From contig NZ_SWKP01000007.1 of the NCBI RefSeq assembly GCF_005871165.1, forward strand, positions 124,001 to 188,000: a stretch of 64,000 nt of DNA, in the 5' to 3' direction. The position numbers and the translations under genes are program-made. This stretch comes from Maricaulis alexandrii (GTDB lineage Bacteria > Pseudomonadota > Alphaproteobacteria > Caulobacterales > Maricaulaceae). Shown here piece by piece: positions 14,882 through 51,257 of this stretch (the stretch's first letter is position 1; the number at the start of each line of letters is the position of its first letter). The notes under the pieces are model-generated. The model was not told the DNA's origin. It ran no database searches and saw only the letters and a list, made by a program, of their open reading frames with translations.

Positions 14882-16966
14882 ATGAAATCCGTGTTGTTGA
14901 GTGGCGCTGCAGCGCTGGCACTGGCCACACCCGCCTTGGCGCAGACGCAGGACGAGGACGAAACCATCGACGTGATCGTCGTGGAGACCACGAAGACCCG
15001 GCTGGACGCCTTCGTCTATCCGGGCATGACCGCCACGATCGATGCCGAAGCCCTCGACCTCTATCGCCCCTCCGATCTGGATGATCTCCTGCGCCAATTG
15101 CCCGGACTGGAAGTCAGCGGCGGTCCGCGCCGCACCGGTCAGACCCTGGCCCTGCGCGGCCAGGGCCGCGAGAACACCACTCTCCTGCTCGACGGCGCGC
15201 GCCAGAATTACGGATCGGCCCATGACGGGGTCTTCTTCATCGACCCGGCCCTGCTGGTCAGCGTGGAGGCCGTGCGGGGGCCAGCGTCCGCGCTTTACGG
15301 CTCTGGCGCTTCAGGCGGCGTGGTCGCCTTCCGGACGGCCGGCGCCGATGACCTGCTCGCAGCAGACGAGGATTGGGGCTTCAGCCTCGGGGCCGGATAC
15401 CGCACGGTCGACGAGGAATTGCGTGGATCGGCCAGCGTCTATGGTCGCCACGGCACGTTCGACGCCCTCGCCTCGGTCTCGCGCCGTTCGTCCGGCGACA
15501 TCACGCTGGGATCCGGCGACCATCTGCCGGCCAGTGATGAAAGCCTCTCCACCCTGCTCAAGCTCGGCAATGATTTTGGAGACGGCATGCGGGCCGAATT
15601 GAGCTGGCAACTGTTTGACGGTGAAGCGGTGGAACCGAACAATGCCCAGGGCGTCGCTTCGGTCGGCTCCCTCAACGCCCTCGCCCAGAAAGATATCGAA
15701 TCGGACAATCTGACGCTCAATGCCCGGATCGCGCCGCCCAGCCTGGACTGGCTGAACCTGGACCTCACTGTCTATTCCAACACGTCCGGCGTGGATGAGC
15801 TGGAACTGGAAACGGGCCGGCAATTGCGCCGCGATCTGGAAACCGTCGGTATTCGCGGCGACCAGCGCTTTGAATTCGCGCTCGGGGCCTATGATGCCGC
15901 GCTGGTCGTAGGAGGTGAATACTATGAAGACAGCCAGGACGGCTTTGACAGCGACGACCCGAACGGCACACGCGGCGGCGCCCCGGATGCCGACAGCCAG
16001 TTCGCCGCCGGCTGGACACAGCTGGAGATCGACGGCCCCGCGCCACTGGGCCTGCCAGGCCGACTGATCGTACTGCCGGGCGTGCGCTATGACAGTTTCG
16101 AGACCTCGACCCCGACCAGCGCCGCTGTCACCAGCGATGCCACCTCATCCCGGCTCGGCCTGACCTATGCGCCGACCGAGCGCTTCAATGTCTTCGTCAG
16201 CTGGGGTGAAGCCTTCCGGGCCCCGTCGATCAACGAACTCTATATCGACGGCACTCACTTCTCCCTGCCCCACATCATTCTGGGCGCCCCGGTTTTCATC
16301 ACCAATGAGTTCATCGCCAATCCGGATCTCCTGCCGGAAGAGACGGAAACCCTGGAGATCGGCTTCGGTCTCGACCTCGCCGACCAGATCGGCGTGGACC
16401 GGTTGGATCTGCGGGCCTCGGTGTATGAGACGCAGGCGGATAACCTGATCGACCTCTTCGTCGACTTCGCCTTTGATCCGACCTGTTTCGCCCCGCCCTT
16501 CTTCTCGCCCTGTTCGGCCGGCACCACGCAAAGCCGCAATGTGGGCTCGGCCGAGCTGACCGGGTATGAAGCCCAGATCGGCTTCGCCCAGGGGCCGCTG
16601 GCCATCGATGCCTCACTGACCGGGATTGATGGAGAGGATACGGAAACCGGCGACCCGCTGGGCTCACTGGCTCCGACGCGTCTTTTCGTGGACGCGCGCT
16701 GGCACTTCGAGGATCAGCGCTTCATCCTGGGTAGCCGCATCCAGGCCGCCGACGACTATGACGCCCCGACCGATACGAGCGCGCATCGCCCCGGTTATGT
16801 CGTCGCCGATCTCTATGCCCGCTGGCAGCCGATCGAAGACAATGGCCTGACCTTCAATGCCGGTGTCGAGAATGTGCTGGACCATGATTATGACCGCGTC
16901 TTTGCCGGTGTCAGTGAGCCGGGGCGGTCCTTCCGGTTCGATGTCAGCTGGTCGCAGGCTTTCTAG
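14882..16966 (+). CDS. TonB-dependent outer-membrane receptor, haem/haemoprotein type
   Basis: The 694-residue product has a signal peptide ending TPALAQ, a plug domain (~residues 35-150, with GGPRRTGQTLALRGQGREN and VRGPASALYGSGASGGVV) and a 22-strand-type barrel. The block around residues 440-500 (SWGEAFRAPSINELYIDG, HF, then IANPDLLPEETETLEIG) is typical of haem or haemoglobin receptors. The C-terminus ends in an aromatic beta strand with Phe last. A terminator follows. Substrate is inferred from the family pattern only. Confidence 0.88.
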   Translation: MKSVLLSGAAALALATPALAQTQDEDETIDVIVVETTKTRLDAFVYPGMTATIDAEALDLYRPSDLDDLLRQLPGLEVSGGPRRTGQTLALRGQGRENTTLLLDGARQNYGSAHDGVFFIDPALLVSVEAVRGPASALYGSGASGGVVAFRTAGADDLLAADEDWGFSLGAGYRTVDEELRGSASVYGRHGTFDALASVSRRSSGDITLGSGDHLPASDESLSTLLKLGNDFGDGMRAELSWQLFDGEAVEPNNAQGVASVGSLNALAQKDIESDNLTLNARIAPPSLDWLNLDLTVYSNTSGVDELELETGRQLRRDLETVGIRGDQRFEFALGAYDAALVVGGEYYEDSQDGFDSDDPNGTRGGAPDADSQFAAGWTQLEIDGPAPLGLPGRLIVLPGVRYDSFETSTPTSAAVTSDATSSRLGLTYAPTERFNVFVSWGEAFRAPSINELYIDGTHFSLPHIILGAPVFITNEFIANPDLLPEETETLEIGFGLDLADQIGVDRLDLRASVYETQADNLIDLFVDFAFDPTCFAPPFFSPCSAGTTQSRNVGSAELTGYEAQIGFAQGPLAIDASLTGIDGEDTETGDPLGSLAPTRLFVDARWHFEDQRFILGSRIQAADDYDAPTDTSAHRPGYVVADLYARWQPIEDNGLTFNAGVENVLDHDYDRVFAGVSEPGRSFRFDVSWSQAF

Positions 16967-17102: not shown

Positions 17103-17519
17103 TCAGTGCGGACGGGCGTGACGGATCTGCGCGATCTCGTCCAGCTCGTCCTGTTCGGCCTTGCGGACGGCTTCCTCGATCCGGGCCAGACGGCGCTCTT
17201 CCAGAAGCTCGTACTTTTTCAGTTCCTGGAAGGCTTCCGACAGGCGGGCCCGCAGGGCATCAGCCTGAACCTCGACCTCGTCCAGCGAGAGGCGGATGTT
17301 TTCCTTCCGCTTGATCACGGCCTGGGCATAAGACCCGTAGGCAACAAAGCCTTCCTTGGATTCCGTCGCAGCCGCCTGCTCTTCCGGCACCGAGGCTTCC
17401 AGGCGCTCGATCTGGTCGATCAGGGATTGGCGCGAGCGGTCGAGCTCGGCCATCTGTTTCTGCAATTCTTCAACCTTGAACCGGGCCAGCCGGATCAGGG
17501 GTTCATGTGAGCGGGTCAT
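17103..17519 (-). CDS. fliJ: Flagellar export chaperone FliJ
   Basis: FliJ is the small coiled-coil component of the FliHIJ export ATPase complex. The 138-residue product is almost entirely charged helix with heptad-like Leu spacing ([20 protein letters not shown] and [20 protein letters not shown]). Its start overlaps the fliI stop by four bases. Sequence conservation in FliJ is weak, so the call rests on coiled coil, length and the coupled position after fliI. Confidence 0.85.
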
Positions 17520-18862
17520 GAGCGCTCTCCTTTACCACCACCCAAAATCTCGGCCAGCATGGCGAAGGTCGTCGGAATGTCCGCCGCCTCGTCTTTTTGC
17601 TGCCCGAGGAATGCTTCCAACGGTTCGTTGAGAGCAATCGCCCGGTCCACCACCGGGTTCGATCCCTGGGTGTAAGCTCCCAGTCGGATCAATTCTTCCA
17701 TGTCGGCATAGGACGACAGGTATTTGCGCGCTTCGGCCACCAGCGGACGCTGCTCGGGGTCGAAGACCTCCGGCGCGGTCCGGCTGACCGATTTGAGAAC
17801 ATCAATGGCCGGATAGCGGCCGCGTTCGGCGATCGCCCGGCTCATCACCACGTGGCCATCCAGGATACCGCGCACGGCATCGGCGATCGGTTCATTATGG
17901 TCGTCACCATCGACCAGAACCGTGAACAGGCCGGTGATCGTGCCCGTCTTGCCGCCATCCTGGCGCACGGGACCAGGGCCGGCGCGCTCCAGCAGGCGCG
18001 GCAGTTCGGCAAACACGGACGGAGTGTAACCCCGTGTCGTCGGCGGCTCGCCGGCCGCCAGACCGATCTCGCGCTGGGCGAGCGCAAAACGGGTCACGCT
18101 GTCCATCAGGCAGAGGACATCCAGCCCCTGATCGCGGAAATACTCCGCCGTGGTCAGGGTCAGGTGCGCCGCCTGGCGACGGGCCAGGGCGGGCGCGTCC
18201 GAGGTCTCGGTAATCACGACAGAGCGCTTGCGGCCTTCCGGACCCAGCACATCCTCGACGAACTCACGGGCTTCACGACCCCGTTCACCGATCAGGCCGA
18301 TCACGATGACATCCGCATCACAGGCCCGGGCCAGCATGGACATCAGGACCGACTTGCCGACACCGGAGCCGGCGAAGATGCCCAGGCGCTGGCCGCGGCG
18401 CATCGGAACGAAACCGTTCAGGACACGCACGCCCAGATCCAGGCGGTCGCCCAGACGGGCCCGTCCATGGGCGCTCGGCGGATTGCCTTTCAGCGGATAG
18501 GGGTGATTGCCCTCATGCAGGCTTCCCTGCCCGTCCAGCGGACGGCCGAAACCATCCAGTACCCGGCCGAGCCAAGCCTGCGAGGGGCGCACGCGCGCCG
18601 CTTCCGGCTGCAGATAAACCTTGGCCCCGGGCCGGACACCTTCCAGCGGGCCGAACGGCATCATCAGGGCGGTTTCGCCCCGGAAGCCGACAATTTCACA
18701 TTCGGCAGATCCTTGGGACGTTTCGATTCGGGCATGCGCACCCAGCGAGAGGCCCGCCTTGGGGCCCTCGGCTTCGACGAGCAAACCATTGAGCGCACAC
18801 ACGCGGCCTTCCAGCACGCGGTCGTCCAGGCGCTCAATGCGATTGATCAGGGTCTGCATCAT
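17516..18862 (-). CDS. fliI: Flagellum-specific ATPase FliI
   Basis: FliI is the F1-beta-like ATPase that energises or primes flagellar export. The 448-residue product has Walker [12 protein letters not shown] and the hexamer signature [20 protein letters not shown]. Walker B is [20 protein letters not shown], followed by [20 protein letters not shown]. Length is normal. It is transcribed away from ctrA, with fliJ overlapping its end. Its promoter must lie in the shared 524 bp gap. Confidence 0.97.
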
Positions 18863-18978: not shown

Positions 18979-19357
18979 GATTCTTCGCAAGCCCCGGATT
19001 CCGATTCTGAAATTGAGTCCCGGCCTCAGGAAATTCAGGTGTGGAAAACCGATTCTGCCGAAATCACGCGTCCCGGCCCCGGATTTCGGCTCAGAATCCG
19101 CCGCTTGGAGACGGAAACTGGCTATACTTTATGCGTGTTATATTTGATCAATCCACAATGATTTGAGTCATTTCCGGCGATCCTGAGCGCGTTAACCCTT
19201 GAATGGTTAACGCGATTTGCGAATCAACTGCTTTCCGGAAATTCGGCTTTCCTGACGATTCCACAACCCAGTCAAGCCGCAGTTAACTTTCGTTAAGGGT
19301 TTCCGCCTAGCGTCCAAATAAGGTTAATCACGAGGTGAGGCCGGGCGGCACTGATTC
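18979..19357. promoter_or_regulatory. ctrA upstream region with ten GANTC methylation sites and TTAA repeats
   Basis: The 524 bp between fliI and ctrA (18863-19386) contains GANTC at 18979, 18997, 19003, 19015, 19051, 19094, 19165, 19221, 19257 and 19353. About 1.5 would be expected by chance in this span. It also holds a perfect 10-bp inverted repeat (CGCGTTAACC, 7 bases, GGTTAACGCG; 19188-19214) and TTAA-N6-TTAA at 19283-19296. In Caulobacter ctrA is controlled by GANTC methylation (CcrM, GcrA) and by CtrA itself, so this is read as the ctrA control region. A GGAGG ribosome-binding site precedes the ctrA ATG. Confidence 0.75.
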
Positions 19358-19386: not shown

Positions 19387-20082
19387 ATGCGGGTTCTTCT
19401 GATTGAGGACGATCGGGCGACGGCCCAGTCCATCGAGCTCATGCTGAAGTCTGACGGCTTCAACATCTACACGACTGATCTGGGCGAAGAGGGTGTCGAT
19501 CTCGGCAAGCTCTACGACTACGACATTATTCTTCTGGACCTGAACCTGCCCGACATGCCGGGCTTCGACGTCCTGAAGACACTTCGCATGTCGAAAATCG
19601 ACACGCCGATCCTGATCCTGACCGGCAATGCCGATATCGACAACAAGGTCCGGGGTCTCGGCTGTGGCGCTGACGACTACATGACCAAGCCCTTCCACAA
19701 GGATGAGATGATCGCGCGCATTCACGCCATCGTCCGTCGCTCCAAGGGCCATTCCCAGTCGATCATCCGCACCGGTTCGATCGCCGTGAACCTCGATGCC
19801 AAGACGGTCGAGGTCGAAGGCCAGCGCGTGCACCTGACCGGCAAGGAATACCAGATGCTGGAGCTGCTCTCCCTGCGCAAGGGGACGACGCTCACCAAGG
19901 AAATGTTCCTGAACCACCTTTATGGCGGCATGGACGAGCCGGAACTGAAGATCATCGACGTCTTCATCTGCAAGCTCCGCAAGAAGCTGGCAGCGGCCAC
20001 CCAGGGCGAACATTTCATCGAAACCGTCTGGGGCCGTGGCTATGTGCTGCGTGACCCGGTTGAGGAAAAAGCCGCCTCCTGA
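19387..20082 (+). CDS. ctrA: Cell-cycle master regulator CtrA
   Basis: CtrA is an OmpR-type response regulator that controls the cell cycle, motility and (in Caulobacter) the replication origin. The 231-residue product has a receiver domain (1-120) with the phosphoacceptor Asp in [13 protein letters not shown] and the conserved Lys in YMTKPF. The winged-helix DNA-binding domain contains [20 protein letters not shown] and [13 protein letters not shown]. The extreme C-terminus ends in Ala-Ala-Ser rather than the Ala-Ala of Caulobacter, though still near the ClpXP-type degron position. A strong terminator follows. Confidence 0.98.
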
Positions 20083-48853: not shown

Positions 48854-50452
48854 CTATTCTGCAGCGATCTCCGCTGCGCGGGCATCCGCCGGCAGGGTCA
48901 CAGAGAATATGGCGCCCGCTCCCGGGGCACTTTCGACCCCGATTTCACCGCCCATCAACTCGGTCAGCTTGTGCGCCAGGGCCAGCCCCAAACCAGTCCC
49001 GCCGCATTTGCGCTGCAACACGGCTTCGGCCTGACTGAAGGGCATGAAGGCTTTGGCGATCATGTCCTGGTCCATGCCGATCCCTGTATCGGACACTTCG
49101 AACACCAGGGCACGGGACCCATCCGCCTGCTGGCGCGCCAGACAGCGCACCCGCACATCGCCGCGATCGGTGAACTTCACCGCATTGGACAACAGATTGG
49201 ACAGGATCTGGCGAACCCGCATCGGGTCCCCGTAAGCCGTCATGTCGGCACACGGGTCCACATCAATATGGAATTGCAGCCCTTTCTCGATGGCCTTCAT
49301 CCGGTAGGGACCGGCCACCGTGCGCACGATCTCGGAAGGATTGAACTCGCCGGTCTCGATCTCGAACCGGCCGGACTCGACATTGGCCAGGTCGAGAATA
49401 TCGTTCAGGATGTCCAGCAAGGCCTGGCCCGAGGCCTCGATCAGCCCGACCATTTCGCGCTGGGACTCTTCCAGCTCGGTGGCCTGCAACAGGCTGGACA
49501 TGCCCAGCACACCATTCAGCGGCGTGCGGACTTCATGGCTCATCGTCGCCAGGAATTTCGACTTGGCCCGGCTGGCCTCGGTGGCCTGCTGCCGCGCCTC
49601 CACCAAGTCATGGATATCGGTCAGCGCCCCGACAACCCGGGTCGCATCACCGTCCGGCGAGCGGACGGCTTCGCCGCGCAGGCGGAACCAGCGGTGCTGG
49701 CCGCCCACAATCCGCAGCCGGACGGTCAGGTCCAAGGGTCGCCCGCTCTTGAAATGCGTGGTGAGAGAGGCGGTGAAGCGGCCCTTGTCGTCATCATGGA
49801 TGAGCGCCAGGAAATGGCTGGACGGCGCCGTGAAATCGCGCGGCTGATAGCCCAGCAATTCGCGTCCGCGGGGTGAGACATAGATCTGGTCGGTTTCGAG
49901 GCACCAGTCGATGATGCCGTCGGACGTCCCCTTCACGGCCAGCGCCGCGCGGTCGCCGGATTCCAGGGCCAGGATCTCGCCGGTCAGGCGGCGGCGGTAA
50001 TGATTGAACACGCCCAGCAATTCATCGCCGATATTGACCGGCCGGTTGAAGGTCGCGCCGACAATGCCGACGGTCTGGGCGCCGTTGAACAGGGGCAGGC
50101 CGACATAAGCTTCCACGCCGGCTTCGGACAGGATGAAATCCTTGGAGAAGCGCGCCGAGAGATTGCTCTCATGGATCGTCGCGCCATTCTCGATCGTCTC
50201 GCCGCAGGGCGTGCCGCGAAGGTCATAGCTGTAGTTTTCGGCGACAACGCCATTGGAGGACACACGCAGGGTGCGGATCCGGGAATTGGTGGCGTCGATC
50301 CGTCCGATGAAGACGCTGTCAGCGGCAAAAATCTCGGCCGTATGTTTCACGAAAGCCTGGAGAAAGGCCGGACCGCACTCGCGCGACAACAGGAAATTGA
50401 GACGGTTCAACCGCTCCTGTGTGACATCGGCTCGAATGGCGAGATCCGGCAT
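48854..50452 (-). CDS. GAF-PAS sensor histidine kinase
   Basis: The 532-residue product has an N-terminal GAF domain (~30-165), a PAS domain (~170-290), HisKA with His in FLATMSHEVRTPLNGV, and HATPase boxes ILSNLLSNAVKFTDRG and GGTGLGLALAHKL. There is no receiver and no membrane segment. It is tail-to-tail with the hybrid kinase at 46948. Upstream are TTAA-N6-TTAA and four GANTC sites, suggesting cell-cycle-linked expression. Its response regulator is not adjacent, unless the facing hybrid kinase's receiver serves. Confidence 0.93.
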   Translation of the reverse strand: MPDLAIRADVTQERLNRLNFLLSRECGPAFLQAFVKHTAEIFAADSVFIGRIDATNSRIRTLRVSSNGVVAENYSYDLRGTPCGETIENGATIHESNLSARFSKDFILSEAGVEAYVGLPLFNGAQTVGIVGATFNRPVNIGDELLGVFNHYRRRLTGEILALESGDRAALAVKGTSDGIIDWCLETDQIYVSPRGRELLGYQPRDFTAPSSHFLALIHDDDKGRFTASLTTHFKSGRPLDLTVRLRIVGGQHRWFRLRGEAVRSPDGDATRVVGALTDIHDLVEARQQATEASRAKSKFLATMSHEVRTPLNGVLGMSSLLQATELEESQREMVGLIEASGQALLDILNDILDLANVESGRFEIETGEFNPSEIVRTVAGPYRMKAIEKGLQFHIDVDPCADMTAYGDPMRVRQILSNLLSNAVKFTDRGDVRVRCLARQQADGSRALVFEVSDTGIGMDQDMIAKAFMPFSQAEAVLQRKCGGTGLGLALAHKLTELMGGEIGVESAPGAGAIFSVTLPADARAAEIAAE

Positions 50453-50497
50453 ATTCCCCTCCAGCGCTCAACCGGTCCGCCCGGTCTTCCAACGTGG

Positions 50498-50582
50498 TTA
50501 ACGGGTCTTAATGTGCCGCAAAGCTGTGGACAGAGTCGTCATATCTGATGAATCCCCGCGGATTCACTGCTCATAAAGAATC
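50498..50582 (-). promoter_or_regulatory. GANTC cluster and TTAA pair upstream of the GAF-PAS kinase gene
   Basis: TTAA-N6-TTAA (50498-50511), the same spacing as at 19283 before ctrA, is followed by GANTC at 50533, 50550, 50561 and 50578. Four sites in 50 bp is well above chance. Confidence 0.5.
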
Positions 50583-50591
50583 AGGCGCGCG

Positions 50592-51257
50592 CTATTCCCG
50601 GCGCAGCACGCGCTCGGTCAGGAAGCTGCCCCACCAGCTCGCCATGAAGGAGGCCTGGACGGCCTCGCGGTCGTAGACGGTCTCCACCCAGTCCATGAAT
50701 CCGATCGGCGTGGTTTCATTGTACTGGCGATAGGTCTCGAAGAAGTGGTCCAGCACGCCGGTCTTGCCGGCTTTCACATGGAGATATTTCAGGGAGAGGT
50801 GCCGGATCGCCTCTTCATAGGGAAGGCCCAGCTTGGTCAGGGCATACAAGACCGAGATGATCCCGGCCCGGTCCGCGCCGGACTTGCAATGGATCAGGGC
50901 CGGATAGGCGATCTCGTCGAAAATCTTCACTGCCCGCTGCATGCGGTCGACATGGGGGGCCTCACGCGAGCCAAAGGGCATGTCGATCATCACCAGACCC
51001 AGACGCTCGCAGGCATCCTTTTCCAGATCGTAATAACAGACGCCCGGCTGGGTGCCGCGAATGTTGAGGATCGTCTTGAACCCCTGTTCCGCCAGCGCTT
51101 CAAGGCGCTGCGGCGAGGGCTGGTTCGACCGCCACATGCCGCCGCCGACCTCGTGCATGTTGTGGAATTTCTGGCGCAGGATGCCATGGTCCTTCCACAG
51201 GAAATCCTGCCAGGCACGTTCGCGGTCTTTGGGGTCATTCAGATCGTAGGGCATCAT
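50592..51257 (-). CDS. Tyrosine/dual-specificity phosphatase family protein
   Basis: The 221-residue product has the CX5R phosphatase loop in LIHCKSGADRAGII (~residues 116-129). A conserved upstream block (GGGMWRSNQPSPQRLEALAE, GFKTILNIRG) precedes it. These match cytoplasmic DSP/PTP proteins. The C-terminal ~70 residues are aromatic and basic. Divergent from the acyltransferase-waaA-lpxK genes, so a lipid or sugar phosphate substrate is possible but unproven. A start one codon later is equally likely. Confidence 0.87.
   Translation of the reverse strand: MMPYDLNDPKDRERAWQDFLWKDHGILRQKFHNMHEVGGGMWRSNQPSPQRLEALAEQGFKTILNIRGTQPGVCYYDLEKDACERLGLVMIDMPFGSREAPHVDRMQRAVKIFDEIAYPALIHCKSGADRAGIISVLYALTKLGLPYEEAIRHLSLKYLHVKAGKTGVLDHFFETYRQYNETTPIGFMDWVETVYDREAVQASFMASWWGSFLTERVLRRE

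Follow-up and report, generated by a model that had tools for sequence, protein, structure and literature searches.

Ten GANTC sites upstream of ctrA in Maricaulis alexandrii: an extreme case among alphaproteobacterial ctrA promoters and its probable control by CcrM and GcrA

The control of ctrA is a textbook example of replication-coupled epigenetic regulation, and it has been worked out in a species with two GANTC sites. In the window, i.e. the whole stretch of 64,000 nucleotides of Maricaulis alexandrii DNA analysed in this study, ctrA (19387..20082, plus strand) encodes a response regulator of 231 aa with the Response_reg and Trans_reg_C domains, and starts with the ATG at 19387. The far boundary of the gap upstream of it is formed by a divergent flagellar ATPase gene (17516..18862, minus strand; domains ATP-synt_ab and T3SS_ATPase_C), for which we keep the name fliI that the initial annotation had given it. 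The gap, running from the fliI start at 18862 on the minus strand to the ctrA ATG, is 524 bp long with a GC content of 54%, and contains all ten GANTC sites, which start at 18979, 18997, 19003, 19015, 19051, 19094, 19165, 19221, 19257 and 19353, the last one ending at 19357. The initial annotation had reported ten sites in 379 bp between fliI and ctrA, two of them six bases apart; each of the ten was found at its position, and the starts of 18997 and 19003 are six bases apart. Why does a ctrA upstream region hold so many targets of CcrM? We favour the reading that this is a ctrA control region selected to hold many CcrM targets, i.e. a CcrM/GcrA-controlled promoter with a lineage-specific extension, to which we would assign, on sequence evidence, a probability of about two in three. 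We see in it an extreme case of the known alphaproteobacterial coupling of gene activity to DNA replication, rather than a novel type of switch.

Enrichment of GANTC over chance and over the genome

The density of the sites had been put at several times the random expectation, and this is borne out by shuffling. Dinucleotide-preserving shuffles of the 524-bp gap gave a mean of 2.1 GANTC and a maximum of 8, with none of 5,000 reaching 10, and shuffles of the 379-bp stretch alone gave a mean of 2.4, with 10 reached once in 5,000. The window as a whole contains 92 GANTC versus 326 expected from shuffles, i.e. ~3.5-fold fewer. As a genomic background we used the window and 25 stretches of 20 kb, together 564 kb or 17% of the 3.35-Mb genome (G000; 12 contigs), two tiny contigs of 1,173 and 636 bases being left out; the intergenic set is an approximation, genes having been called by a custom script based on codon scores. 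In this sample, GANTC occurs at 1.06/kb within called genes and at 2.38/kb in the remaining sequence. Six is the highest number of sites in any other 379-bp stretch, and the Poisson chance of 10 sites in 379 bp at the sampled intergenic rate is 4e-8, uncorrected for the number of places examined. Two stretches with six GANTC in 379 bp were set aside, one (L082) lying inside an open reading frame (ORF) and the other (L083) inside a stretch of 43% GC. A ranking by density of the called gaps between 150 and 1,200 bp (108 in number), from which smaller and larger gaps were dropped, put the ctrA gap first with 19/kb; those in second and third place had 14/kb (three sites, 213 bp) and 10/kb (two sites, 202 bp). 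An intergenic density equal to that of this region, which the initial annotation had named as a result that would speak against its reading, was thus not found in the sampled 17%, the figures being 2.3-2.4/kb versus 19/kb at ctrA.

Seven palindromes that match GANTC in base composition were used as controls, and they occur 0, 2, 0, 1, 0, 3 and 3 times in the ctrA gap, versus ten times for GANTC. The corresponding gaps of two sister genomes contain 10 GANTC versus 0-3 of the controls (G026), and 7 versus 0-5 (G009). Over the 59 genomes of the family, the 400-bp regions before ctrA contain 223 GANTC versus 38-88 for the controls, and the ctrA coding sequences of the same genomes 23 versus 36-143; the counts at 80 named alphaproteobacterial loci (see below) are 320 versus 76-130 upstream of ctrA, and 30 versus 40-209 in its coding sequence. 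In the other called gaps of this genome (up to 1,200 bp), the density of GANTC (2.26/kb) falls inside the control range of 1.45-4.54/kb, hence gaps here are not rich in GANTC on average. An excess over chance near the ctrA promoter, as looked for in a promoter controlled by CcrM and GcrA, is therefore present.

The same counts bear on the likeliest alternative, according to which most of the sites would be products of relaxed drift, accumulated in a long, AT-richer gap (54% GC versus 64% in the window) while GANTC was selected against in coding sequence, with only two or three proximal sites of any importance. Dinucleotide-preserving shuffles, the scarcity of the control palindromes in the gap and the ceiling of six sites in other sampled 379-bp stretches all argue against it, as do the ten and seven sites in the gaps of G026 and G009. 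It gains, on the other hand, from two other sampled gaps with four sites in ~50 bp. One of them is the 139-bp gap 50453-50591 of the window, with 4 GANTC within 50 bp at 50533-50582; the other is a 220-bp gap of a second sampled stretch (L081, 15976-16195), with 4 GANTC in 52 bp at 15981-16032. The tightest group of four at ctrA spans 41 bp. These groups elsewhere lowered our confidence in the reading of an array under CcrM and GcrA: both gaps approach that of ctrA in density but not in number of sites, so tight groups of GANTC occur elsewhere too, and within the sample it is only the total of ten in a single gap that sets ctrA apart. Taken together with the conservation data given below, we regard drift as an unlikely account of most of the sites.

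As to the surroundings of these two groups, the first gap lies upstream of an ORF at 48854-50452 on the minus strand that, judged by its sequence, is histidine-kinase-like; the next ORF, 50592-51257, lies on the same strand, and the interval 50533-50701 contains five GANTC in 169 bp. The gap in L081 precedes an ORF on the plus strand that begins at 16196; its 220 bp are what is left of a larger called gap (1,076 bp, seven sites) after removal of an uncalled ORF that lies in it.

Conservation of the sites and their association with ctrA

A ctrA gene, ~84-100% identical, was matched in all 59 genomes of the family (partial in G019, at a contig end), and all the upstream regions were read. They contain 1-10 GANTC in 400 bp, with a median of 3, the sister G026 having 10. 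The present genome has five in 300 bp and nine in 400 bp, the tenth being at 408 bp; five or more within 300 bp were found in 16 of the 59 genomes, this one included. A GATTCG within 80 bp of the ctrA ATG is present in 54 of the 59 genomes (as TGATTCG on either strand in 48), and in 9 of the 80 named loci; the GATTCG site in the leader is a family trait.

The named alphaproteobacterial loci are the best 80 of at least 585 confirmed ones, chosen by closeness to this CtrA; many are from Rhizobiales, and four come from genomes also among the 59. Their 400-bp upstream regions contain 0-11 GANTC (median 4; 78 of the 80 have 1-11), and 76 of these best 80 have at least one within 300 bp. High counts are seen in a metagenome-assembled genome labelled Caulobacter (11), another such genome (8) and four Roseibium loci (6-9); at four other Caulobacter-labelled loci the count is 1-3. 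A published survey reports, in the part available, up to five or six GANTC in 300 bp in Sphingomonadales and Caulobacterales, and finds one in just half (50%) of the Rhizobiales ctrA promoters (PMC8116508). Ten GANTC at ctrA are therefore extreme, not unique, and the statement that they far exceed the one or two of Caulobacter holds for C. crescentus and fails as a general one, given the ranges of 1-10 in the family and 1-11 in 78 of the 80 named loci. Maricaulis maris is listed among seven species scanned for conserved promoter GANTC, and ctrA among the genes carrying them (PMC3708114, PMC3973325, as excerpted). Among the titles and abstract openings listed for Maricaulis, and for GcrA together with several or grouped GANTC, none describes this locus.

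Spacings between sites of 5, 9, 11, 12, 13 and 18 bp exceeded a random-placement null in 135 ctrA upstream regions (e.g. 26 at 9 bp versus ~5 in the null); these rows are related by descent, so no conclusion is drawn from them. Four named loci from family genomes already counted (L094, L097, L098 and L099) were dropped from this set of spacings and positions and retained in the 80. An abutting pair, GACTCGATTC, lies ~135 bp upstream of ctrA beside the CtrA box in genera 5, 8, 13, 14 and 15 (L024-L041), often with a GAGTC ~8 bp further on. The pair is absent from the present ctrA upstream region, in which site 19257 lies near its position.

Individual sites differ in their conservation. Three of the ten are kept in at least five of the six genus members: 19221..19225, 166 bp 5' of the ATG and reading TGATTCG on the minus strand (5/6); 19257..19261 (CGATTCC; 130 bp 5' of the ATG; 6/6); and 19353..19357 (TGATTCG; 34 bp 5' of the ATG, within what is presumed to be the 5' leader; 6/6). 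In the genus alignment, conservation extends over much of the ~115 bp next to the ATG. Between these and the distal sites, 19094..19098 (GAATC) is absent from both sisters, and 19165..19169 (GAGTC) is common to G026. For the five distal sites (18979-19051), the distance to the downstream ATG is 336-408 bp: 18979..18983 (GATTC), the most distal one, is common to G009; 18997..19001 (GATTC) is kept in both sisters, where it reads GACTC; 19003..19007 (GATTC) and 19015..19019 (GAGTC) are common to both; and 19051..19055 (GATTC) is without a match in strict pairwise alignment, G026 having a GAATC at almost the same distance from fliI. In a third genus member, G038, a GACTC is aligned with 18997. Pairwise alignment shows seven of the ten to be retained in G026 and likewise seven in G009, so that the lack of conservation in sister species, which the initial annotation had also named as contrary evidence, was not observed.

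This pattern cuts both ways for drift. The retention of only three sites across the genus and the turnover between close sisters are in its favour, and the first site of the distal triplet, 18997, varies only at the free base, so that the motif stays, which is against it. In G009, retention in the distal part is 4 of 6 sites versus 10 of 109 same-shape non-site positions (Fisher P = 0.002, indicative only, as the windows overlap); in G026 it is 3 of 6 versus 30 of 109 (P = 0.35), not above background. The distal array, being kept mainly in these two genomes, is lineage-specific.

Only 117-193 bp separate the distal sites from the start of fliI, which raises the question of which gene owns them. 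A fliI was matched in 41 of the 59 genomes, and 30 fliI loci were listed and read. Of the 17 listed loci without ctrA in the fetched stretch, 11 have no GANTC in the 350 bp upstream of fliI, and the range is 0-3; the 13 with fliI beside ctrA have 2-7, the stretch then including the ctrA control region. Because fliI copies without ctrA are mostly site-free, the GANTC signal goes with ctrA. The suggestion that the distal sites serve a divergent fliI promoter and tie flagellar expression to replication, to which their closeness to fliI and the occurrence of the array in three genus members with fliI adjoining ctrA lend some colour, is made very improbable by these site-poor copies. In the genus, fliI directly adjoins ctrA in the present genome, G026 and G009, the only members with the full distal array, and lies 2.1-2.2 kb away in G046, G056 and G038.

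Promoter anatomy and candidate mechanism

The genome encodes an ortholog of CcrM, with N6_N4_Mtase and RAMA domains and an almost full-length match to the solved CcrM chain 6pbd (E = 5e-173), as well as an ortholog of GcrA (PF07750; E = 1e-49 to 7ye1). With both in the same genome, the ctrA promoter is most naturally read as methylation-sensitive. Two more matches to the N6_N4_Mtase family are present in the genome (L169 and L170).

A DnaA-box-like motif, TGTGGAAAA, lies at 19040..19048 on the minus strand (read there as TTTTCCACA). It is found in all six genus members, and a match lies within 500 bp in 16 of the 59 family genomes. An inverted repeat at 19188..19214, CGCGTTAACC-CTTGAAT-GGTTAACGCG, is partly kept in the genus and contains two TTAA half-sites, 11 bp apart versus the usual 6-7 of a CtrA box. 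A CtrA-like box, TTAA-N6-TTAA, is located at 19283..19296 on the plus strand within the conserved part of the genus alignment and immediately downstream of site 19257, and is presumed, by analogy with C. crescentus, to be the core of the main ctrA promoter. Its spacing differs from the full TTAA-N7-TTAA of the C. crescentus-type P2; a full CtrA motif with N6 is listed for podJ, and the C. crescentus box is placed at -39 of P2 (both in the available text of PMC4287350). By this analogy, the main ctrA start would be near 19322, with site 19353 in the leader. The promoter scan matched no sigma-70-type promoter, so no start site was placed by it, and the terminator scan was also empty.

The proximity of these elements to the GANTC sites suggests another alternative, in which bound CtrA, MucR or DnaA would shield sites from CcrM and leave them stably non-methylated. 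Sites do lie beside the TTAA boxes and the DnaA-like box. Furthermore, MucR is reported to occlude GANTC in C. crescentus, where one MucR-target promoter has four, and CtrA to do so on a synthetic promoter (PMC5172544, in excerpt). However, none of the ten sites overlaps the CtrA-like box, and such competition seems to us quite improbable as the reason for the array.

For GcrA, an extended motif TGATTCG / YGAKTCK has been reported, and its regulation of ctrA is predicted with high probability in almost all of a set of 23 species (PMC7987155), which speaks for the CcrM/GcrA reading. TGATTCG occurs at 19353 (plus strand) and 19221 (minus strand), and YGAKTCK matches also at 18979, 19003 and 19051, the other five sites being without a match. 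Under the reading of a CcrM/GcrA-controlled promoter, CcrM would maintain full methylation of the GANTC sites of ctrA towards the end of the cell cycle, and passage of the replication fork would leave them half-methylated. GcrA would read the methylated promoter-near sites, chiefly 19353 and 19221, which carry TGATTCG, and 19257 on the promoter side, and would help RNA polymerase to start ctrA transcription after the locus has been copied, CtrA then working through the TTAA boxes. The proximal sites probably do the regulatory work, and the distal array 18979-19051 may be an extension of the same signal, probably providing redundancy or local GcrA occupancy and not a separate mechanism. Joint action of the sites is a more doubtful proposition: ctrA output might be set by the number of half-methylated sites, or GcrA might bind cooperatively across the proximal and distal arrays, giving a sharper or stronger replication-coupled onset than one or two sites allow. 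That the number of sites by itself would make a switch with several sites or an extended CcrM/GcrA loading zone, as the initial annotation suggested, is likewise a hypothesis. Hints of multi-site action come from C. crescentus, where the preferred GcrA target CCNA_00697, which carries three sites, was bound better than the other probes (Kd 4 uM versus 6.5 for ctrA P1), and where binding at ctrA P1 is described as methylation-dependent, with cooperative interactions raised on fully methylated P1 (PMC3667746, in part). Hemimethylation has been linked with ctrA P1 (PMC8116508).

Several observations are counted against this CcrM/GcrA reading. A ctrA promoter that cannot be methylated is reported to cause no abnormal phenotype in C. 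crescentus (PMC3973325, citing earlier work, and likewise PMC3708114), and a GANTC in the preceding 50 bp is reported for only 31% of the GcrA-enriched cell-cycle start sites of that species (PMC4287350). Over 13 species, regulation of ctrA by GcrA is predicted only in Caulobacterales and Sphingomonadales (PMC7987155, in the sections available); unlike this prediction, most of the listed Rhizobiales loci have GANTC before ctrA as well. Further contrary points are the distal retention in G026, which does not exceed background, the leader GATTCG being a trait of the family (9 of the 80 named loci have it), and the paucity of GANTC in the 400 bp upstream of other genes in this genome, i.e. mipZ (L201; 0), ccrM (L168; 0), gcrA (L001; 1) and ftsZ (L203; 0-1), whose start codons were guessed; dnaA was dropped from this comparison as its start could not be placed.

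Comparison with known systems

A relative with ten sites, together with family members with four to seven, forms a natural series in which one may ask if the switch varies in strength or timing with how many sites there are and where they lie. The closest model is the ctrA P1/P2 region of C. crescentus, which the present locus resembles in its upstream GANTC, its TTAA boxes, a GANTC 3' of the (here presumed) P2 start, and the presence of CcrM and GcrA in the genome. It differs in having ten sites instead of one in P1 and one past the P2 start (PMC3667746, as excerpted), in its distal array 336-408 bp upstream, and in that its start is inferred by analogy. Among alphaproteobacterial ctrA promoters with multiple GANTC, the five sites within 300 bp are in line with the reported five or six, whereas the five beyond 300 bp fall outside the count of that survey (PMC8116508, in part). 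The repABC-Ch2/ori2 region of Agrobacterium likewise has GANTC triplets at a replication-linked promoter, placed under GcrA control in the published model; it concerns, however, another gene and another replicon, and single sites were changed there, while the present case is read from sequence (PMC11514494, in the text available).
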